Source of the DNA: Rhodocyclaceae bacterium
Lineage (GTDB): Bacteria > Pseudomonadota > Gammaproteobacteria > Burkholderiales > Rhodocyclaceae
Assembly: GCA_018883385.1 (NCBI GenBank)
Contig: VEQD01000014.1
Location: forward strand, 1 to 32,170
Direction of reading: 5' to 3'
Length of the DNA stretch: 32,170 bases
Notes under the pieces: generated by a model
The model's input: only the letters and a program-made list of their open reading frames with translations
Told to the model about the DNA's origin: nothing
Databases searched by the model: none
Program-made: the position numbers and the translations under genes
Part shown: one piece after another, positions 1,347 to 12,321 of the stretch
Layout of the letters: every line of letters starts with the position of its first letter
Numbering within the stretch: position 1 is the first letter of the stretch

Positions 1347-1691
1347 CTACGACAACTCCAAGACCTGAGCCATTTGTTTTGAGCGTTCATGCAGGAGATT
1401 GGTGCCCGCTTTAGTCAGAGTCAGTTGCTTGGCTCGTTTGTCGTTCTTGCTGATTGATACGTTGATGAACCCACGATTACCCAAGGTCATAACCTTTCGT
1501 TGAACAGTGGGACCGGTGCCAAAAAACATACATTGAACAAGGTCCGTAATCTTGACCGGGTGGTTGGAGACCTCCTCCACATGAATATAGGCCAACATCT
1601 CCTCGCAGCCATCAAAGTCGGGATCATCCGCTTGTTTTCGCGCCATCGTTAAGGCGTTTAACCACTGTGCGAAGGGTATGGGTTTTGTCAT
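1347..1691 (-). CDS. MarR-family-like winged-helix transcriptional regulator
   Basis: 114 aa ORF; KITDLVQCMFFGTGPTVQRKVMTLGNRGFINVSISKNDKRAKQLTLTKAG resembles a MarR wHTH plus wing (DKRAKQLTLTKAG). Confidence 0.7.
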   Translation of the reverse strand: MTKPIPFAQWLNALTMARKQADDPDFDGCEEMLAYIHVEEVSNHPVKITDLVQCMFFGTGPTVQRKVMTLGNRGFINVSISKNDKRAKQLTLTKAGTNLLHERSKQMAQVLELS

Positions 1692-1718
1692 GTTGATTTC
1701 CTAATCGAAGTTTTGCTC

Positions 1719-1733
1719 ATCATAATTTATGGG
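1719..1733. promoter_or_regulatory. Operator-like palindrome CATAATTTATG (core 1721-1731)
   Basis: Perfect CATAA-T-TTATG palindrome just upstream of the MarR-like gene; a related palindrome lies at 1803-1817. Confidence 0.4.
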
Positions 1734-1802
1734 ATGTGGTGTGCAAAACCAAATTCGAGAGTTGCGTTAAAGCGTTGACTCTTTCTATGCGTCATCTTTG
1801 AT

Positions 1803-1817
1803 CCATAAATTTTATGG
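1803..1817. promoter_or_regulatory. Operator-like palindrome CCATAAATTTTATGG
   Basis: CCATAA-ATT-TTATGG, perfect 6-bp arms, in the divergent intergenic region. Confidence 0.4.
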
Positions 1818-1855
1818 CCTACTCTTTAACGCTCAATCGACTAAGGAGTGGCGGC

Positions 1856-2362
1856 ATGGGAAGCATGGGTTTTGTCTCGCAATTGAACCCCAAACGAATC
1901 TTTCAATACGGGCAGGAATACATTGACAAGAAACTGAAGCGGTTTAAGCCCAACAAAAAAAAGGGTGCGTTGGTCTGCAAAAATTGCGGTGTCTTTCAAA
2001 TAGGTGGGCGTTGGACGTGGGATGCGAGGCCATTGTTTCCCAAAAAGATCGTCTGTCCCGCCTGTCAGCAGGGTTTAGAAAGTCGCCCAGCGGGTGTACT
2101 TGTGCTTGATGGAGACAAATATCGCAAGCACCTTATCGATATCACCGCCCTGATGAAGCATTTCGAAATCGTCGAGAAGCGAGAGCATCCGCTTTCAAGG
2201 ATCATGGATATCAGCACACAAGGCAAGCTCATCACCGTGCGTACGACATCGACAAAGATTGTTCAGTCATTGGCGGATATGGTTCAAAGGTCGTTTGGCG
2301 CCACGACCATCAGGCGAGACGTTGATGCTTGCGGCGCAGTGACTATTGAAATGGTCGAGTAA
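1856..2362 (+). CDS. BCAM0308 / NMD3-like zinc-ribbon protein
   Basis: CKNCGVFQIGGRWTW...CPACQQGLESRPAGVLVLDGDKYRKHLIDI...EKREHPLSRIMDI matches the layout I recall for the BCAM0308 family. Start set to 1856 because AAGGAG precedes that ATG; the listed start at 1814 lies inside a palindrome. Confidence 0.7.
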   Translation: MGSMGFVSQLNPKRIFQYGQEYIDKKLKRFKPNKKKGALVCKNCGVFQIGGRWTWDARPLFPKKIVCPACQQGLESRPAGVLVLDGDKYRKHLIDITALMKHFEIVEKREHPLSRIMDISTQGKLITVRTTSTKIVQSLADMVQRSFGATTIRRDVDACGAVTIEMVE

Positions 2363-2486
2363 ATCTGTAAACAGGTTTACGGATTAAAGGCAGATGCGTC
2401 AATCACTTAGCATTTCCACAATTAAAACATTGCTAATAACACCTCAATGAATATATTGGCATCTCTTGAATAAATCTGGTATAGAA

Positions 2487-3140
2487 ATGAAACATCCTGC
2501 GGTAATCGCAATGAAGGCGATCCAAATCTTTAACCATCTTCCCAGTCAGACCCTGGAGTTGATATCCCGGAAGTGCGATTTGTGCTCGTACCGGCCAAAT
2601 GGTTTGATCTTTTCAGAGAATGCCAAGGCGAACAGAGTGGGTTTTATCGTCTCTGGGTTTGTCAAACTGATGCGTGGCGACCGAAAACTCCCTCTGGTAA
2701 CAGAAAAAGATTCCGAACTGGGCCATGTCTCAGATAAGCAGATGCTGGTCGATCTCCTTGGCCCTGGGGATTCGTTGGGCGCTGCTTGTGCGTTATTGGG
2801 CGACTTGTATTCAAGTTCGGCAATCGCCATAACGCCGTGTAACGTCGCTTTCTTGAGCGCGGATGCCTTTGTTTCAATGCTGCATCAAATTGACGGCCTG
2901 TCTGAGCGGGTGATGCAATCGCTCGCCAAGAGTCTGGTCGAGTCGGAAAAGCACGCACAGATCATGAATGGCGACTTGAAAACAAGGGTGATGACCATAA
3001 GAAGGCGATGCTCGCACTTGGGAATCGATGTGGATCAGTGGCTTTCCAACGCAGAGGTCGCACGAATGGCAGGGGCGACCCGGGTGGCGGTAAGCCAAAT
3101 TATGAGCCGAGAAAAACGCAGTCAAACAACGCGGATGTAA
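2487..3140 (+). CDS. Crp/Fnr family transcriptional regulator
   Basis: cNMP-binding-like fold (GFIVSGFVKLMRG...LLGPGDSLGAACALLG) and C-terminal HTH (SNAEVARMAGATRVAVSQIMSRE). Confidence 0.75.
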   Translation: MKHPAVIAMKAIQIFNHLPSQTLELISRKCDLCSYRPNGLIFSENAKANRVGFIVSGFVKLMRGDRKLPLVTEKDSELGHVSDKQMLVDLLGPGDSLGAACALLGDLYSSSAIAITPCNVAFLSADAFVSMLHQIDGLSERVMQSLAKSLVESEKHAQIMNGDLKTRVMTIRRRCSHLGIDVDQWLSNAEVARMAGATRVAVSQIMSREKRSQTTRM

Positions 3141-3272
3141 GTCTTAATCATGTAAAGGATTTGACGCTCGTTTGCTATCGCTTTTGTATTTGGCATGCCT
3201 TGTACATACATTGAAGCATGGAACTTAGGTGCCATGCTTGTTGATCAATTTGTACAGTTAAAGAGGTTTGTC

Positions 3273-3674
3273 ATGAAAGTAAGTCGCTATACGCCAATTG
3301 AAGATTTTTTTAAGGGGTTCTGGATTAATCCGATGGAATTTTCCTTTGCGGCACAGCCCATGGATACGGAAATTAGGGAGAGTGAGTCATCGTACTTCGT
3401 AGATGTCGATCTTCCGGGTATTCACAAAGAGGATATTGATGTCAGTATTCAAGGGCGCCGCGTAAGCATCAACGCCAACAGGAAAGAGTGGCAAGAAGAA
3501 TCGGATGCAAAACTCATCAAGACTGAAATGCGCTACGGTAAGGTTTATCGGCAGTTCGAAATGGAACACGAGATGACTGAAGAGGGTGCGGAGGCAAAGT
3601 TCGAAGAGGGCGTATTGCACGTCGTCTTGCCCAAGAAAAACGGGCTACCCGCAAAGCTTCTCTCAATCAGATAG
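3273..3674 (+). CDS. Hsp20/alpha-crystallin small heat shock protein
   Basis: ESSYFVDVDLPGIHKEDIDVSIQGRRVSINANRKEW...YGKVYRQFEM...AKFEEGVLHVVLPKK, typical alpha-crystallin domain. ATG at 3273 follows an AAAGAGG SD. Confidence 0.93.
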   Translation: MKVSRYTPIEDFFKGFWINPMEFSFAAQPMDTEIRESESSYFVDVDLPGIHKEDIDVSIQGRRVSINANRKEWQEESDAKLIKTEMRYGKVYRQFEMEHEMTEEGAEAKFEEGVLHVVLPKKNGLPAKLLSIR

Positions 3675-3695
3675 TCACGCTCAAGGCGTGAACGT

Positions 3696-3731
3696 ATGCA
3701 AACCATGTGTGAGCGTGGTTTGCATTTTTTA
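3696..3731 (+). terminator. Rho-independent terminator after hsp20
   Basis: ATGCAAACCA / TGGTTTGCAT, 10-bp perfect stem followed by a T-run. Confidence 0.75.
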
Positions 3732-3753
3732 TATTTGACTCAGTTAATGAAAA

Positions 3754-4350
3754 ATGAACTCAATTTACACGGACACAGAAAAGGCACTGCTATGCGACTA
3801 CTTCAATATTCAACGGCCAACCGCCTTACAACAACTGAATCTCTATAAAAATGATCATGTGACCGTACTACTGGATGATCAGGAGTTGCCAGAGATCGAG
3901 CTGGCAAGTGCAGTGGGTCAAATCGCACTCAATGGCCACTGCTCAGACAACAGCTTTCTTAAGAAAGGTGTTACAGCACCCAGGAAGAATGGGGATCATG
4001 AGGTTTTAATACCCCGGCTTCTCTTTACCATTCGATGGCCTGATAGCTTTATGGATGATGCATGGACAGAGTCATATTACATCACGTTCTTTCCGGGGTT
4101 TGACCGTTACGTGGTGACAGCAAGCCAGTCGCCAAACGAGACTTTTGATCTTGACGAGGTCGCCATCGGCTGGCGCTACGCAGGAGAGCCAAGATTGAAG
4201 ATTGCAGAGGACATCATCACGCAGAGTTGGCAAGAGCTACATGGCAAGCTCAGTGGTGGTGCGTGGCAGTCCGTAGAAAAATCTGGTTTGGTTTCTATGA
4301 ACGAGGCTTGCATGTGGCGCAATCATGTCTGGCGGTTCTTGTTAAATTGA
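3754..4350 (+). CDS. Uncharacterised protein, paralog A
   Basis: 198 aa ORF. Shares MNS[IM]YTD.E.A.LCDYF...RP and YY[IL]T[FW]FP.FDRYVVTAS...AIGW with the ORF at 5972-6664. Confidence 0.8.
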   Translation: MNSIYTDTEKALLCDYFNIQRPTALQQLNLYKNDHVTVLLDDQELPEIELASAVGQIALNGHCSDNSFLKKGVTAPRKNGDHEVLIPRLLFTIRWPDSFMDDAWTESYYITFFPGFDRYVVTASQSPNETFDLDEVAIGWRYAGEPRLKIAEDIITQSWQELHGKLSGGAWQSVEKSGLVSMNEACMWRNHVWRFLLN

Positions 4351-4372
4351 GCGCGTCATATCCGACATTATC

Positions 4373-4397
4373 AAGCCGATCACTCGATCGGCTTTTT
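4373..4397 (+). terminator. Rho-independent terminator
   Basis: AAGCCGATC-ACTC-GATCGGCTT followed by TTT; 9-bp perfect stem. Confidence 0.75.
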
Positions 4398-4517
4398 AGT
4401 TGGCATCGTCAAAGCATTGACACACCGTTGGCTGACAGAACTTTTTTGGCTTCTATAGTGAGTAATGAGTTGTCGACATCGTGTTGGTGGCTCGTAATCT
4501 TAACTTTGGAGTTCAAA

Positions 4518-4883
4518 ATGAAATTCAAGAAACTTATCGCTGTAACGGTCATGTCGCTGACTGCTGGCGTTGCGCTTGCCTCTAACAATCACATGCCACA
4601 GCCGCAGATTTCGGCACCGAAAATCGACTCGAACATGGCCATTTCTGGCGGTTTTGCTGGTGGCGCCACCATGAACAATGCAGCCCTAGAAGTTAACTAC
4701 ACTTCCCTGAGCGGTTCGCTGATGACCAGCCCGCAGCTGAATGTCGGTACCGAAACGGCCACTCAGGGTGGTGGTACTGCAATCAGCACTGGCCCTGGTT
4801 CGGCCGTGTTCTCTGTTGGTAGCTTTGCTGCTGCCGGCGTGAACAACATTACTTTGCCAACGATTCAACACCTGCATTTCTAA
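4518..4883 (+). CDS. Small exported Gly/Ser/Thr-rich protein
   Basis: MKFKKLIAVTVMSLTAGVALASNNHMPQPQ... is a clear signal peptide with low-complexity GGGTAISTGPG-type mature sequence. Start chosen inside the 4227-4883 ORF. Confidence 0.7.
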   Translation: MKFKKLIAVTVMSLTAGVALASNNHMPQPQISAPKIDSNMAISGGFAGGATMNNAALEVNYTSLSGSLMTSPQLNVGTETATQGGGTAISTGPGSAVFSVGSFAAAGVNNITLPTIQHLHF

Positions 4884-4928
4884 TTTGGGTGGTTGCTGGG
4901 TAGTTGCATAGCCAGCAAATCGATCGGT

Positions 4929-4967
4929 AAGTGAGGGGTTCCTTTAGGGGATTCCCCTCACTTTTGC
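4929..4967 (+). promoter_or_regulatory. Intercistronic hairpin, possible attenuator or processing site
   Basis: AAGTGAGGGG ... CCCCTCACTT, 10-bp perfect arms followed by TT, between two exported-protein genes. Confidence 0.5.
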
Positions 4968-4978
4968 AAAGGGGTGTT

Positions 4979-5545
4979 ATGAAAACAAATTATCACGTGT
5001 GCGCGGTCGCATTGCTTTTGGCGTTCGGAAGTTCAATGGCTTCTGCGCAGACTTCAACGTCAAGCGCTGCGTCTACCGCGACGTCTGGCGCATTAAATAA
5101 TGCAGGTAATACCCAGGGTATTACCTTCAACTCCACAGGGGCTTCGGGCATTAATTATTCTGGCAGCTACAGTGTCAAGTCGACGGGAGCTGCCGTGTTG
5201 CCTGGTTTTTCGGGGTCATTCAGTAGTGATTATTGCGGTGCCACTGCTGGTATTGCAGGCGGGGGTATGGGTTTCGCCTTTTCTGCTGGAGCGCCCGTCA
5301 TTGATCAGTCTTGTGTGATGTTGCGTACGTTTGAGCGATCAATGCAAGCCGCCGCGGCAATGCAACAAGTCGATCCGGCAGTCTCACGCGAATTGCGTAA
5401 TGCATCGCTAGAGATACTGGCCGAGATCAATCCGAAGATTCGGGCAATTTTCCAGAAGCGCAATTTAGTGCCAAAAGACGAGTTAGCGCTGCGTGAAAGC
5501 CAGCCCTATTTGGAGTATCAGAATAACCAGTGGGTACAACGATGA
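4979..5545 (+). CDS. Exported protein of unknown function
   Basis: MKTNYHVCAVALLLAFGSSMASAQ signal peptide, Ser/Thr/Gly-rich segment, two cysteines (DYCGATAG, DQSCVMLR), and a helical C-terminal region. Confidence 0.75.
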   Translation: MKTNYHVCAVALLLAFGSSMASAQTSTSSAASTATSGALNNAGNTQGITFNSTGASGINYSGSYSVKSTGAAVLPGFSGSFSSDYCGATAGIAGGGMGFAFSAGAPVIDQSCVMLRTFERSMQAAAAMQQVDPAVSRELRNASLEILAEINPKIRAIFQKRNLVPKDELALRESQPYLEYQNNQWVQR

Positions 5546-5949
5546 GTAAGCCGAACCTTTATTCGACGGCGCTTGCGTTAATGCTCGCAATCAGTGCACA
5601 ACATGCGCAAAGCGCTCCGGAAGTAAACAACGCCGCGGCAATACGCTATATCAGCGGTGGTGTTGGTGATGAAGATCTTGACATGCTTCAGACAGAGCAG
5701 GTGAATCATCGGCTAAAAATGGTTTTTACGACATTGGACGGCAGCTTCCTTGCCGATGTGGCCGTACTGGTACTGGATCGGAATAAGAACACCTTAATTC
5801 AAGCCAAGTCAGAAGGGCCGGTCATGCTTCTTGATCTGCCCAACGGCACGTACCAGGTTCAGGCAACGTACGCGCTTGAAACGATTAGCCGTGACGTTGT
5901 GTCACAGCCTAATAGGCTGAGTACGGTTTATTTCAGATTCGGAAATTAA
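5542..5949 (+). CDS. Exported protein with carboxypeptidase-regulatory-like beta-sandwich
   Basis: MSKPNLYSTALALMLAISAQHAQSA signal peptide; DGSFLADVAVLVLDRNKNTLIQAKSEGPVMLLDLPNGTYQVQATY. Overlaps the previous stop as ATGA. Confidence 0.72.
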   Translation: MSKPNLYSTALALMLAISAQHAQSAPEVNNAAAIRYISGGVGDEDLDMLQTEQVNHRLKMVFTTLDGSFLADVAVLVLDRNKNTLIQAKSEGPVMLLDLPNGTYQVQATYALETISRDVVSQPNRLSTVYFRFGN

Positions 5950-5971
5950 TGGTTTATCCCTGGGGTATTAA

Positions 5972-6664
5972 ATGAATTCGATGTATACCGATGTTGAACA
6001 TGCATTCCTCTGCGACTATTTTGGTGTCGAACGTCCGCGATCACTTATTAATATTGATACGTACGATCAATCGGCAGGCGATGGTGTCGCGCTTCTTAAC
6101 GAGAGTAGTTACCCCGGGGTTAATTTGGCCAGTGGCGTCGCCCGACTTGCCTTAAGCAGGCTTGAGGTATTGGGTCGGGGCTGGGTGGAGGAAAATAGGT
6201 CTGCCCACGAATTAACAAGCGGGTTTGTGCGCGACGGATATGACGGGCTGTACGATATTGATCTTTACCCCTTATATCTCTTTGGTGTTGATTGGGCTAT
6301 CCCGAGTGATTATGACCATTTCCCGGAATATTATTACCTAACCTGGTTTCCGGAATTTGACCGGTATGTCGTCACGGCTTCGGTGAGTTCAAAGGAGCGC
6401 TATGGAGTCAGCGATTTTGCGATTGGTTGGAATTCAGCCTCAAACAAGCGCATTGATCTCTGTCACCACATCATAGGGACTTACTGGGAGGATGTTCACA
6501 AGCCATTTAACGGATACGGGTGGGGCAAGGTCCTTTCTTCGGGATTAGTGCCAGAACATTTGGCTAGTGAGTGGCGTTCAGAGCTTTGGCCGTTGAGCAC
6601 TGAATACGGACCGATCGTGGGCTCAATGTTGGCAGGTGAACAGGGGGCGCAACATGTCCATTGA
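5972..6664 (+). CDS. Uncharacterised protein, paralog B (related to 3754-4350)
   Basis: 230 aa; MNSMYTDVEHAFLCDYFGVERP and YYLTWFPEFDRYVVTASVS align with paralog A. Confidence 0.8.
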   Translation: MNSMYTDVEHAFLCDYFGVERPRSLINIDTYDQSAGDGVALLNESSYPGVNLASGVARLALSRLEVLGRGWVEENRSAHELTSGFVRDGYDGLYDIDLYPLYLFGVDWAIPSDYDHFPEYYYLTWFPEFDRYVVTASVSSKERYGVSDFAIGWNSASNKRIDLCHHIIGTYWEDVHKPFNGYGWGKVLSSGLVPEHLASEWRSELWPLSTEYGPIVGSMLAGEQGAQHVH

Positions 6665-6844
6665 GTGTTTGCTCCTAAAGCCAATGGGGTCAGGGGGTAT
6701 GGAAAGAAATGAGAAACCCACGCCGACGACAATAGAAACCGATACCAGTCACCTCGTCAATGAGAGATGTGCACTTTCAACCCGAAAGCCTGCTGGCTCG
6801 AAAAAGAAACCAATGTTCAACCCAACATCAAAGCGGGGTTGAGC

Positions 6845-7132
6845 ATGGAATATTTAAGAGTTGGGTTTTTGTGGGGGTTTGTGTTTGCAACGATTCATGC
6901 GGGGTGGGCATTGATTGTTGCTCAGAATTACGGGCAGCCATTGATTGATTTTCTACTGAAGATTCATTTCTTGAGCAATCCATTTGTTGTACAGGTGTTC
7001 GATATGACCTTGGCCTACGCCCTGGTGGGGATCTCTGGAGCGCTGGGTCTGATTGCGGGCACGGCTTTTTCGATGCTGTGGGATTTGATTGGTGACTCAG
7101 AACCACGTGAAAGCAGGGAACATAATGACTAA
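6845..7132 (+). CDS. Small integral membrane protein
   Basis: MEYLRVGFLWGFVFATIHAGWALIVAQNY...MTLAYALVGISGALGLIAGTAFSMLWDL, two predicted TM stretches. Overlaps the CFA synthase start. Confidence 0.65.
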   Translation: MEYLRVGFLWGFVFATIHAGWALIVAQNYGQPLIDFLLKIHFLSNPFVVQVFDMTLAYALVGISGALGLIAGTAFSMLWDLIGDSEPRESREHND

Positions 7133-8279
7133 TCAAATGGCGATGAACGCTCCTGGCCATACCCGTATTCCTGACATCATACGTCGGATGGCTGAAGTTT
7201 CCGGCATTGGATTTAGCGGAGAGCGCCCTTGGGATATCAAGATCAATGATCATATGTTCTACGATTCAGTGATGAGGGATGGCTCTTTAGGTCTGGGCGA
7301 GACCTACATGCTTGGTCATTGGGATTGTGACCGACTTGATGAGTTTTTTACCAGAGTCCTGCGGGTTGACCTGGATAAGCAGATCTTGAGTTTGACCCCG
7401 TTTAAAAGTCTCATGGAATATCTGCGCCATAAGTTGACAAACCTTCAATCCATCAGCCGGTCGAATCAGGTAGCGCTGGCGCATTATGACGTAGGTGCAG
7501 ATGTATTCAGGGCAATGCTTGACCCGACAATGAGCTACTCCTGTGGGTATTGGGCAAACGCGAGGACATTAGATGAAGCGCAAATCGCAAAGCTGGATCT
7601 CGTATGCCGAAAATTAGAACTCAAAGCGGGTGACAGGCTCCTGGATATCGGCTGTGGCTGGGGTGGCTTGGCAGCGTATGCAGCAGAGCGATATGGCGCA
7701 CAGGTGACCGGGGTTACGGTGTCGCGTGAACAATATGCCTATGCGCAGCATCGATATGCTCACCTGCCAGTCAATTTCCTATTGATGGATTATCGATGTC
7801 TTGATGGGGAATTCGATAAGATCGCTTCTGTGGGCATGTTTGAGCATGTGGGTCAGAAAAATTATCGGCATTTCTTAGACAAGATCAATGCCTTGCTGGA
7901 ACCAGACGGACTTGCGCTATTGCACACGATCGGCACGCACGAATCCGTGAGGCATACGGATACGTGGATAGATCGGTATATTTTTCCGAATGGTCGTATA
8001 CCAACCGCCAGGGAAATCATGAACGTATTGTCCGATGATTTCATCATCGAAGATTGGCACAACTTCGGACAAGATTACGACAGAACATTAATGATTTGGT
8101 CAGAGCGCTTTGATGCTGCCTGGCCGGGGCTCTCATCAAAATACGACGAGCGCTTCTACCGCATGTGGCACTACTACCTGATGAGTTGTGCTGCATTTTT
8201 TAGATCCAGACAGGGGCAGTTGTGGCAATTAGTCCTGAGTAAACGTGAGCGATCCTGTGGCTATCGATCGGTTCGTTAA
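7125..8279 (+). CDS. cfa: Cyclopropane-fatty-acyl-phospholipid synthase family protein
   Basis: LAHYDVGADVFRAMLDPTMSYSCGYW, LLDIGCGWGGLAAYAAERYGAQVTGVTVSREQ, FDKIASVGMFEHVGQKNYR, YIFPNGRIPT, LMIWSERFDAAWP. Confidence 0.92.
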   Translation: MTNQMAMNAPGHTRIPDIIRRMAEVSGIGFSGERPWDIKINDHMFYDSVMRDGSLGLGETYMLGHWDCDRLDEFFTRVLRVDLDKQILSLTPFKSLMEYLRHKLTNLQSISRSNQVALAHYDVGADVFRAMLDPTMSYSCGYWANARTLDEAQIAKLDLVCRKLELKAGDRLLDIGCGWGGLAAYAAERYGAQVTGVTVSREQYAYAQHRYAHLPVNFLLMDYRCLDGEFDKIASVGMFEHVGQKNYRHFLDKINALLEPDGLALLHTIGTHESVRHTDTWIDRYIFPNGRIPTAREIMNVLSDDFIIEDWHNFGQDYDRTLMIWSERFDAAWPGLSSKYDERFYRMWHYYLMSCAAFFRSRQGQLWQLVLSKRERSCGYRSVR

Positions 8280-8328
8280 GGTGCTGGCATTGCGGAATTT
8301 TGGCGCCTAATCGAAGAAATATTTACGT

Positions 8329-8340
8329 CCCCCCCCCCCC
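8329..8340. repeat. Homopolymeric C12 tract
   Basis: tacgtCCCCCCCCCCCCttattt, ~58 bp upstream of the GTG start at 8399. Confidence 0.9.
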
Positions 8341-8364
8341 TTATTTCCCTATAAATATGCTATA

Positions 8365-8380
8365 TGCTATGACTATAGCA
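8365..8380. promoter_or_regulatory. Operator-like inverted repeat TGCTAT-GACT-ATAGCA
   Basis: Perfect 6-4-6 inverted repeat, preceded by a tandem TATGCTA x2 (8356-8369), directly upstream of the Crp-like gene. Confidence 0.4.
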
Positions 8381-8398
8381 ACTTTATAGGAGTGGGTT

Positions 8399-9034
8399 GT
8401 GCATCAAATGTGCAGGCCGAGCTCGGTTGTATTAAAGATGTTTGACACCTTCCAGTCTTTATCGGAAATGGAGTTGCAGAGTCTTTCCGAATTTTCTAAA
8501 TTTGTGGACGCCAAGCCCGGCCAGGTTATTGTCGCGCAGGGATGTCAATCTGATTTTGTGTTTTTTATCCTGACCGGGGTTGCAAAACTGACGAGAAATG
8601 TAAATTCTGCTGCAGTGGACGATTCCAGCTTGACGGAGGTGGTCGTGCAAATATTTGTTCCTGGCGACGCTATTGGTGATGCAGGTGTTTTTCAAAACGT
8701 CATTTTCAAAGCAACCGTCAGGGCGGTTACCCCATGCCAGCTGCTCGCTGTCGAAAAATCAAAGATCCAGGCACTCGCCAAATCAAATATGGCGGTTTTA
8801 GCAAGCCTCTATAACCGCACATCGAAAAAATTCTTTAAATCCGTTGAGTGTGCCGATTACGCTTACGGCAGAGTTATCAAGCGCATCGAAAAATTAGCAT
8901 TCGAATTCAAAAAGATTGGGCTCGATCTCTACAAACACCTCTCTAAGGCAGAAATCGCGAGAATGCTTGGCGCTTCGAGGGTGGCTGTCAGCAACTGCCT
9001 AAGTTTGCATAATAGATCAGACAACAAGCATTAG
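8399..9034 (+). CDS. Crp/Fnr family transcriptional regulator
   Basis: AKPGQVIVAQGCQSDFVFFILTGVAKLTRN...FVPGDAIGDAGVF; C-terminal HTH LSKAEIARMLGASRVAVSNCL. GTG start with SD AGGAG. Confidence 0.75.
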   Translation: MHQMCRPSSVVLKMFDTFQSLSEMELQSLSEFSKFVDAKPGQVIVAQGCQSDFVFFILTGVAKLTRNVNSAAVDDSSLTEVVVQIFVPGDAIGDAGVFQNVIFKATVRAVTPCQLLAVEKSKIQALAKSNMAVLASLYNRTSKKFFKSVECADYAYGRVIKRIEKLAFEFKKIGLDLYKHLSKAEIARMLGASRVAVSNCLSLHNRSDNKH

Positions 9035-9092
9035 CGCTTTAGCTGATGATTTGGTCGGAACTGGCCGCGGGGGCAATTTGAGTTCTCTGGGT

Positions 9093-9716
9093 TTATGAGC
9101 CAAGCTGGCTCAGATGCCATGTTTCATTAATGCTTTTAATTTGAAACGCGCCATCTGCAAATTCGACTTCGTTAATGCAGCACGGATCCTGTTTGATGGC
9201 CCAGTACTTCGAAAGCGGCAGCCCGAGCATATGCAAGATCAGCACGCGGTTGACACTATCGTGGCTCACCATGACGACGGTTTTTCCTTCGTATTCTCTC
9301 AGGATCTTTCCAAGCGCCTGCGTCACCCGGACTAGAACCTGTTGTAGCGATTCACCCTCGGGCATCTGCATCTGGTCAGGATGCTTCTTCCAAGTTGAAA
9401 ATGCATCCGGCGCGTTTTGACGAACCTCATCGTGGGTTTTCCATTGCCACGCACCATAATCGATGTCGCAAAGCTCGGGGAGAATCTGGCTGCTGACATC
9501 ACAAGCACTTGCAATGGATTCACCTGTTGCAATACAGCGTCCAAGAGAGCTTGTAAACACCATTTCGGGCGCTGCACTTTGTTTGACCCTTGCTGCAGTC
9601 AATAGACGTTGTTTTTCACCTAGGGTAGATAGGGGGATTTCAGCACGGCCGCGAAATCGCTCAGGTTGAATGCCATCTACGTGGCCGTGCCGAACCAATA
9701 TAATTCTGGTAGCCAT
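9093..9716 (-). CDS. Histidine phosphatase (phosphoglycerate mutase-like) family protein
   Basis: IILVRHGHVDG...RFRGRAEIPLSTLGEKQ...VFTSSLGRCIATGE...LCDIDYGAWQWKTHDEV...VVMVSHDSVNRVL. Confidence 0.9.
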   Translation of the reverse strand: MATRIILVRHGHVDGIQPERFRGRAEIPLSTLGEKQRLLTAARVKQSAAPEMVFTSSLGRCIATGESIASACDVSSQILPELCDIDYGAWQWKTHDEVRQNAPDAFSTWKKHPDQMQMPEGESLQQVLVRVTQALGKILREYEGKTVVMVSHDSVNRVLILHMLGLPLSKYWAIKQDPCCINEVEFADGAFQIKSINETWHLSQLGS

Positions 9717-9733
9717 ACATCAGATCCTTAAGT

Positions 9734-9751
9734 ACTATTTTGCGAAATAGT
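9734..9751. promoter_or_regulatory. Inverted repeat ACTATTT-TGCG-AAATAGT
   Basis: Perfect 7-4-7 inverted repeat in the divergent intergenic region. Confidence 0.35.
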
Positions 9752-9811
9752 CGTATTTTAATTTGAGACTACGCTTTTTTGAAAGCGGCGGGTCACGATG
9801 GAGCACATGGC

Positions 9812-10375
9812 ATGGACAAGATGCATTTCACACGAATGGATCAGGGTACAAAAGAAGATTTCGAGCTTCTGAAAGAGGTTCATGAGCGCTCGCTTCAGGC
9901 ATTGCCAGATCTACTTTATCGAATTTTAGAGGAAGTCGGCAACGATAATTTCTACAACATCAGCCGTAAGGATCATTGTCTTCAGGCTGCAACACGTGCG
10001 CTTCGTGATAACCGGGATGAAGAGTATGTTGTTGTGACGTTGTTTCACGATATCTGCGAAGCCTTGGGGCCGTTCAATCATGGCGAAGTTGTCGCATCGA
10101 TTTTGCGTCCCTTTATCAGCAGAAATAATTACTGGATGCTCGCAAACCATGGGCTGTTTCAAACTTACTATTACGGAAAGTATCTCGGGCTTGATCCCAA
10201 CGCCCGTGAGCAATACAAGGATGACCCCGCTTACGAGCAGACGGTTGAGTTTTGTGCAAAGTACGATCAGGTTTCTTTTGACCCCGACTATAAAAGTGAG
10301 CCCTTATCAACATTTGACCCAATGGTTCGGAGAGTGCTCAACAAAACGTGGACTCCACCCAGTCGTAGTGCCTAA
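9812..10375 (+). CDS. HD-domain protein, COG4341/PhnZ/MIOX-like (possible diiron oxygenase)
   Basis: Ordered motifs HCLQAA, FHDICEALGPFNHGE, ANHGLFQTYYYGKYLG, KYDQVSFDPDYKSEPLSTFDPMVRRV. ATG at 9812 has upstream GGAG. Confidence 0.78.
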   Translation: MDKMHFTRMDQGTKEDFELLKEVHERSLQALPDLLYRILEEVGNDNFYNISRKDHCLQAATRALRDNRDEEYVVVTLFHDICEALGPFNHGEVVASILRPFISRNNYWMLANHGLFQTYYYGKYLGLDPNAREQYKDDPAYEQTVEFCAKYDQVSFDPDYKSEPLSTFDPMVRRVLNKTWTPPSRSA

Positions 10376-10390
10376 AAGTAGCGCCGTGAT

Positions 10391-10759
10391 ATGAGCATCA
10401 AATTTTCCGACCGTCTTTTAGATGAACTGCCGGACGCACTCATCGTGGCCGATTTAAAGGGGGTTATCAGGGTCTGGAATACTCGCGCAGAGGAACTCTT
10501 TAAATTTTCAAAGGCTGCCGTGATTGGAGAAAGCCTCGATTTAATAATCCCTGAAAATTTAAGGAAGTCACACTGGGCAGGTTTCTGTAGAGCCATCTCA
10601 AGTGGCAAAGTTAAGTTCAACGGCAAACCTGTGAGAACAAAAGCACTCTTAGGCGATGGCGGATTGAGTTATGTAAATATAACGTTTTCGTTATCGCATG
10701 ACGAAGAGGGAAACACAATCGGCGTTGCCGCACTTGCTAGAGTAGCACCCAAGGAATAA
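10391..10759 (+). CDS. Single PAS-domain protein
   Basis: LLDELPDALIVADLKGVIRVWNTRAEELFKFSKAAVIGESLDLIIPENLRKSHWAGF...VNITFSLSHDEEGNTIGVAALAR. Confidence 0.88.
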   Translation: MSIKFSDRLLDELPDALIVADLKGVIRVWNTRAEELFKFSKAAVIGESLDLIIPENLRKSHWAGFCRAISSGKVKFNGKPVRTKALLGDGGLSYVNITFSLSHDEEGNTIGVAALARVAPKE

Positions 10760-10896
10760 GATAGCCCCCAAGGAATGGGTTGCGCGTGGCGCTAGTTTGA
10801 GGGCCGCCATTAATCGATTGCACACAGCTAGTCGTGTCAACTTGTAACGTTACATATATACGGTTGAATTGACCGATTAATACTGCTTTTGAGCAA

Positions 10897-10918
10897 CCCC
10901 CTTAAAAAGGCGAGGATT
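10897..10918. repeat. Degenerate copy of the CCCCTTAAAAAGGGGAGGATT element
   Basis: CCCCCTTAAAAAGGCGAGGATT; 20/21 identity to 12387-12407 on the other side of the IS. Confidence 0.65.
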
Positions 10919-10928
10919 CACAAATATT

Positions 10929-11130
10929 CTATTGCATTTCTGCAGGAGTCAATTGAATAGCATCAATGAAAAGTCCATCTGCAATTTCTTTGAACTCTTT
11001 ATTGTATGGTTCTGGACTTGTAACTTGCTGCCCATTCTTCATTATCCGGACGCGAAGAATCGTTTCTGACAGTTTAGGGTAGTTTCCGTCAAGTGAGTAA
11101 TCCATGACAATGCCTGTTTTCATGTCATAG
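10929..11130 (-). pseudogene. 3' remnant of an unknown gene truncated at the IS3 left end
   Basis: The frame HYDMKTGIVMDYSLDGNYPKLSE...LTPAEMQ reads into the IS inverted repeat at 11131. The ORF-track start (11156) lies inside the IS. Confidence 0.6.
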
Positions 11131-11209: not shown

Positions 11210-11476
11210 ATGCGTAAATCAAAGTTCAGCGAGAGCCAGATCGTGGCAATTCTCAAAGAAGCCGATAGTGGGATACCGGTTGCCGAGGTTCTGAGAAACC
11301 ACGGTATTAGTGCTGCCACGTTCTATAAGTGGCGATCCAAATATGGTGGCCTGGAAGCGTCTGAGCTCAAACGGATCAAAGAGTTGGAACAGCAGCTCGC
11401 CGAGTTCAAAGCGATCGTTGCCGACCTCACCCTTGAGAACAAAGGCATGCGAGGGCTCCTTGCAAAAAAGCTCTGA
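11210..11476 (+). CDS. IS3-family transposase OrfA
   Basis: MRKSKFSESQIVAILKEADSGIPVAEVLRNHGISAATFYKWRSKYGG, HTH plus leucine-zipper-like region. Confidence 0.93.
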   Translation: MRKSKFSESQIVAILKEADSGIPVAEVLRNHGISAATFYKWRSKYGGLEASELKRIKELEQQLAEFKAIVADLTLENKGMRGLLAKKL

Positions 11477-11497
11477 CGCCCGTCAAAAAACGGGCGG
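11464..11497 (+). promoter_or_regulatory. Programmed -1 ribosomal frameshift signal (A AAA AAG plus stem-loop)
   Basis: Heptamer at 11464-11470 in the correct 0-frame phase (gcA AAA AAG); 6 nt later the hairpin CGCCCGT-CAAAAA-ACGGGCG (11477-11496); OrfA stop at 11474-11476. Confidence 0.85.
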
Positions 11498-12321
11498 CAG
11501 TGGATTATCTGGTTCAGGAAGAACAACTGACGGTGAAACAGGCCTGTTCCTGTGTGGCCTTGTCTCGGGCTTCCTATTACCGGAAACCGGTGGACCTGGC
11601 CATCAAGGATGCTCCGGTCATTGATGCGCTCAATAGCATCATTGCCAAGCATGGCCGCTGGGGCTTTGGACTCTGTTTCGACCGGCTCAGGAATCAGGGA
11701 TATCCCTGGAACCACAAGAAAGTCTGGCGGGTTTACAAGGACATGAAGCTCAACATGCCCCGGAGAACCAAGAAACGGCTACCTAAGTTGCCGAAACAGC
11801 CGCTGGTGGCGCCAATTCTTCCTAACCATATCTGGTCGCTCGACTTTATGCATGACGCCCTGTATCGAGGCAAAGCCTTCCGAACGCTCAATGTCATCGA
11901 TGAGTCCAACCGTGAGGCCTTGACCATCGAGATCGACTTCAGCCTACCGGCTGCCCGGGTCATTCGAGTGCTGGAGCAGCTCGAAGAGATCCATGGGTTA
12001 CCCGAAGCCATTCGCCTGGATAACGGACCTGAACTACGGGCCACCGTCTTTACCGAATGGTGTGAATCCAAAGGCATCGAACTGAAATACATTCAGCCGG
12101 GTAAGCCGCAGCAGAATGCCTTCATTGAACGGTTTAACCGAACCTATCGGCATGAAGTCCTCAATGCCTATTTGTTCGATGATCTGGAGCAGGCTCGGGA
12201 AATCACCGAGGCCTGGATCAGGTCATATAACGAAGAGCGCCCACATGGGGCACTTGGGAAGCTGCCGCCCAAATCCTTCAGGCAGCAAGCAGAAAATTCT
12301 CTTTTACCCGTGTCTCATTGA
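11470..12321 (+). CDS. IS3-family transposase OrfB (rve/DDE integrase core), likely made as an OrfAB fusion
   Basis: HIWSLDFMHDAL, LDNGPELRA, QNAFIERFNRTYRHEVLNAYLF...YNEERPHGALG; frame continuous with the -1 shift product. Confidence 0.92.
   Translation, partial: ALTPVKKRAAVDYLVQEEQLTVKQACSCVALSRASYYRKPVDLAIKDAPVIDALNSIIAKHGRWGFGLCFDRLRNQGYPWNHKKVWRVYKDMKLNMPRRTKKRLPKLPKQPLVAPILPNHIWSLDFMHDALYRGKAFRTLNVIDESNREALTIEIDFSLPAARVIRVLEQLEEIHGLPEAIRLDNGPELRATVFTEWCESKGIELKYIQPGKPQQNAFIERFNRTYRHEVLNAYLFDDLEQAREITEAWIRSYNEERPHGALGKLPPKSFRQQAENSLLPVSH

Follow-up and report, generated by a model that had tools for sequence, protein, structure and literature searches.

Two adjacent genes for small, predicted exported proteins, here called gB and gC, are on sequence comparison the coherent unit within a five-gene cluster (gA to gE, positions 3,754 to 6,664) of a Rhodocyclaceae bacterium, and this pair is common to Burkholderiales and phages. 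The window, that is the whole stretch of DNA that was analyzed, has 32,170 nucleotides. The pair carries no Pfam or NCBIfam name, no description of it was found in literature searches and it is apparently unnamed. In the explanation that we prefer, though tentatively, gB and gC would form a two-component surface or extracellular structure which has been spread by phages, with gB as its major and gC as its minor part.

The five open reading frames were checked in the window and lie, all on the forward strand, where a first-pass annotation had placed them; none of the five proteins scored above threshold in Pfam, NCBIfam, PHROG or PADLOC. The first gene, gA (3754..4350, 198 aa, predicted cytosolic), has terminator-like hairpins on both sides, one at 3696-3725 and one on the forward strand at 4373..4394 (fold z -3.5) which closes the gene, and gA is probably its own transcription unit. 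The latter hairpin stands between gA and gB, and the bracket that gA and gE form around the exported genes is therefore transcriptionally asymmetric. A sigma-70-like promoter candidate upstream of gB (4432..4459, forward strand, 10/12 matches) is suggestive only, as promoter-like sites of such quality are no more frequent than in shuffled sequences. It is followed by gB (4518..4883, 121 aa, low-complexity, the proposed major subunit), by a hairpin between the two cistrons (4929..4964, forward strand, AAGTGAGGGG...CCCCTCACTTTT, fold z -3.2) and by gC (4979..5545, 188 aa), which is proposed as minor subunit, anchor or nucleator. The fourth gene, gD (5542..5949, 135 aa), shares 4 bp with the end of gC, and gE (5972..6664, 230 aa, predicted cytosolic) begins 22 bp 3′ of gD, so that it is probably co-transcribed with gC and gD.

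The division into exported and cytosolic products was judged from hydropathy and Ala-X-Ala sites, a crude criterion and not SignalP, and on this basis it agreed with what had been read from the sequence before. The most hydrophobic stretch of 10 residues at the N-terminus reached 2.2 in gB, 3.05 in gC and 2.42 in gD, each with an Ala-X-Ala type site, while gA and gE with 0.74 and 0.95 are not hydrophobic there and appear to have no signal peptide. The two cysteines that had been counted in gC are those of the mature protein (C86 and C112); there is in addition a third, C8, within the signal peptide. Following this signal peptide, gC is built of an S/T/N-rich arm with a GNxQxIxFNS motif, a DxC...DxxC domain in which both cysteines are invariant, and then helices. 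The AlphaFold model of gC (mean pLDDT 46.6) was too poor to use and a Foldseek search with it gave chance matches only; the model gives only a hint of a two-strand hairpin between the cysteines C86 and C112, with helices after it.

The pair was then traced through bacterial genomes, plasmids and phages. A gC homolog with 48% identity (E 7e-41) in genome G090 is immediately preceded by a small gene for an exported Gly-rich protein, and the same order of gB and gC on one strand was found in the window, in G090, G577, G641 (twice), G182, G472 and G067 and on a Variovorax plasmid, with an extra small gene in between in G419 and on a Burkholderia plasmid. It was also found in Achromobacter phages and in 7/7 close IMG/VR contigs, of which one (L033) is phage phiAxp-2; in vB_Ade_ART the pair is ART_00071/72, and in phiAxp-2 it is orf51/orf52, given without function (PMC5037462). 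The closest match of the gC of the window is itself from a viral contig (L029, 68% identity over the core), and it groups with L029, with viral contig L030 and with G090, a grouping with moderate support and some long branches. At all loci measured gB consists to 53-81% of G, A, S, T and N and has 1-9% charged residues (53% and 6% in the window). Because gB is so low in complexity, its homology between lineages would rest mostly on position and composition, together with one local alignment of the window gB with the gB of L029 that scored above 200/200 shuffles (z 4.3); a profile made from viral gBs scored the window gB no better than shuffles.

The same distribution bears on two other readings. 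Under one, the main rival, which we regard as somewhat unlikely, the pair would be a phage accessory (moron) or envelope module altering or perforating the outer envelope, for superinfection exclusion or as a help in lysis and release, and the bacterial copies would have been domesticated. Its presence in many viral contigs agrees with this, as does the position of orf51/52 of phiAxp-2 in a block of minus-strand genes with no assigned function (PMC5037462), but there are no phage genes beside the chromosomal copies in G090, G577, G641 (contig C11) and Variovorax, the copies in G641 C11 and Variovorax adjoin LuxR-type response regulators, and a spanin signature was not seen. Under the other, gB and gC would be virion-associated proteins and the chromosomal copies prophage remnants; this is very unlikely although the pair is present in many phages, as gB and gC each carry a Sec-type signal peptide and the pair stands outside the structural genes in phiAxp-2 and vB_Ade_ART.

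Some of these loci have further features. Variovorax, G182 and G472 have, 3′ of gC, a third gene for an exported protein (about 110 aa) that is unlike gD and contains the motif QPVGDYGVWHVPQ or a similar one (L040:4738-5082, L023:5909-6241). The second pair of G641, on contig C17 (L051:7351-10243), has a reverse transcriptase and a small Avd-like protein next to it, and by eye this neighbourhood resembles a diversity-generating retroelement.

The hairpin between gB and gC recurs across these loci. In 13/17 gB-gC spacers there was a stem of 8 bp or more, free of interruptions and with a loop of 3-8, against 1.06 expected from dinucleotide shuffles; the 17 spacers are partly related and do not count as separate cases. 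The control stretches, 60 nt 5′ of each gB, had such a stem in 1/17. The stems vary in sequence. In some operons a hairpin behind the first gene sets the ratios of the proteins, and by this analogy the simplest reading would be that more gB than gC is made. Fimbrial operons for major and minor subunits likewise have a stem-loop behind their first gene that could fix the subunit ratio, as the hairpin may in gB-gC; no pilin, chaperone or usher domain was found above cut-off among the five genes.

In the two-component structure that we prefer, gB would be produced in excess and, once past the inner membrane, would build up a structure on the surface or outside the cell, with the hairpin either dampening the expression of gC or stabilizing the gB message. 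The low-complexity arm of gC would attach to gB and its disulphide-closed domain to the envelope; it is also possible that gC acts as the nucleator of the structure. For the pair, neither a secretion partner nor an outer-membrane channel was identified. Curli (csgBA-type) and other functional amyloids resemble it in having a small exported polar low-complexity subunit beside a partner and also in an adjacent LuxR-type regulator, which gB-gC has in two loci. In contrast to curli, the CsgG outer-membrane channel was not found in this genome (G000, 83% complete) nor in the complete relative G090, which argues against curli proper, and neither gB nor gC had a Pfam curlin match for the curlin repeats.

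The gC domain extends far beyond the pair. Comparison of the close gC family with a more distant superfamily by profile-profile alignment (hhalign) gave a probability of 99% and E 7e-18. Members of the distant group match phrog_20531 (PHROGs v4) at E 5e-14 to 3e-18; the Achromobacter phage JWDelta protein JJJA_0025 does so at 1e-153 and a phage relative (P0002) at E 0.004. When searched directly against PHROGs, the gC of the window did not match phrog_20531 and gave only unrelated weak matches, so the link to the superfamily runs via the profiles of relatives. The phrog_20531 proteins share with gC the secretion signal, the S/T/N-rich arm and the DxC...DxxC domain, and this PHROG is itself without function. 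JJJA_0025 (L037:4419-5351) joins a G/N-rich N-terminus and a gC-type domain in one protein and looks like a fusion of a gB-like region, recognized by its composition, with a gC-type domain.

As judged from profile matches, distant relatives of gC occur widely among marine phages, the distant profile finding at least 587 confirmed IMG/VR stretches. At 46/76 marine loci (L081-L160) the gene after the gC-like gene belongs to one family of large exported proteins, which had no Pfam match. The gC-like gene there adjoins a large exported protein and not gB, and therefore gC need not depend on gB. In these marine loci, where the gC-like gene comes first, the spacer after it (median length 0) had a stem in 0/47. 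Small membrane proteins which by eye are holin-like often precede the marine gC-like genes; this again suits the idea of an envelope-perforating phage module, although these proteins have no Pfam support as holins.

A wider proposal, which we hold to be doubtful, is that the pair represents an undescribed class of two-component extracellular structure exchanged by phages and bacteria. On infected cells, phages would assemble it from a glycine-rich protein made in abundance and from a nucleator that is scarce and closed by a disulphide, with the hairpin setting the ratio; this hairpin would persist as a structure while its sequence changes, and related gC domains would have a similar exported role in many marine phages. 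If this were true, phages would cause the cells they infect to expose or release a simple structure of two proteins, which bacteria have adopted. As the gC superfamily is common and without a named function, the function of the small Achromobacter phage pair could then be carried over to many genes of marine phages.

The genes at the two ends of the cluster may have another history. The paralogy of gA and gE that had been noticed from shared peptides is well borne out, as the two are 38% identical across almost their entire length (tblastn E ~1e-37) and their relationship is therefore beyond chance. A profile of gA and gE run on 399 genomes found one homolog each in G652 (same family) and G493 (same order), and a wider profile added one in G117 (another class). 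No additional homologs appeared in 121 genomes from the same family or in 78 from the class of G117, and a match of the wider profile in G217 was discarded as a fragment full of stops (E 9e-4). The family was also absent from the viral contigs, plasmids and phages searched, its peptide patterns gave no match in genome contigs, no PADLOC model was matched by the five proteins or the three homologs, and the AlphaFold model of gA (mean pLDDT 43.5) was too poor to use. The homolog of G652 has an integrase on one side and type I restriction genes on the other, with DarT/DarG-like genes farther on (by eye); that of G493 has an integrase and phage-like genes nearby; and that of G117 comes after an integrase and primase-like island genes and before an ADP-ribosylglycohydrolase-like gene. 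On these matches and neighbourhoods the gA/gE family is rare, patchy and tied to mobile islands. The homolog of G652 shares a 4 bp overlap with a gene of 133 aa (L019:8361-8762), a possible partner, which had no Pfam or PADLOC match.

A check on whether the five genes occur together had been proposed. A reciprocal profile test over 27 loci found no gC at the G652, G493 and G117 islands and no gA or gE at the other gC loci. Homologs of the bracketing genes are thus found without gC, in a sample of three members outside the window, which is against the tie between bracketing and exported genes that the first-pass annotation had drawn. Since gA/gE and gC are apart and gD is unlinked, the five genes are not inherited together as one system. 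That they nevertheless make up one dedicated system, an exported structure with two cytosolic partners, is highly improbable: the genes are physically close and gE, given its short distance to gD, is probably in one transcript with gC and gD, but gC is missing beside the other gA/gE homologs, none of the other gC loci has a gA or gE gene, gD is a common family without linkage to gC and a terminator-like hairpin separates gA. The surface filament or adhesin proposed at first stays as the best guess for gB and gC, while its dedicated cytosolic partners find no support.

Least probable is that gB, gC or gD is an exported toxin to which gA and gE confer immunity. Both are small and cytosolic and their family sits in islands rich in defence genes, G652 having type I restriction-modification and, by eye, DarT/DarG-like genes nearby, but no defence or other family model was matched and gB, gC and gD do not resemble a known toxin domain. 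Immunity genes normally remain with their toxin; gB-gC is without gA/gE everywhere else it was seen, and outside the window gA/gE and gC are never at one locus, which speaks against the immunity role once suggested for them. As a part of the tentatively preferred two-component explanation, and held with the same reserve, gA and gE may be passengers from mobile DNA whose flanking positions reflect the assembly of the island and not a partnership, and gD and gE would have joined the gC operon locally.

The exported protein gD had been described as carboxypeptidase-regulatory-like. Its similarity to CarboxypepD_reg (PF13620) is weak, 14.1 bits against a Pfam gathering cut-off of 32.3, so this assignment falls below threshold. 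Matches to the gD family were found in 46/150 Burkholderiales genomes and in varied neighbourhoods, which in G577, G182 and G067 are far from gC; by these matches gD is an ordinary common exported family of Burkholderiales that is unlinked to gC.

The composition of the window suggests that the cluster lies in acquired DNA. GC content is about 46-50% at 1.5-11 kb versus 57-60% past 15 kb, and an IS3-type transposase is found at 11210-12321, near the end of the low-GC tract; tract (1500-11000) and transposase together suggest an island. Near the end of this tract there is also an AT-rich stretch (28.6% GC, 12.5-13.5 kb). Two CRP/FNR-type regulators are located on either side of the cluster (2490-3137 and 8399-9034), with an Hsp20 gene (3195-3674) and a cyclopropane fatty acid synthase gene (7125-8279) near it, and these neighbours give the surroundings a stress-response flavour.
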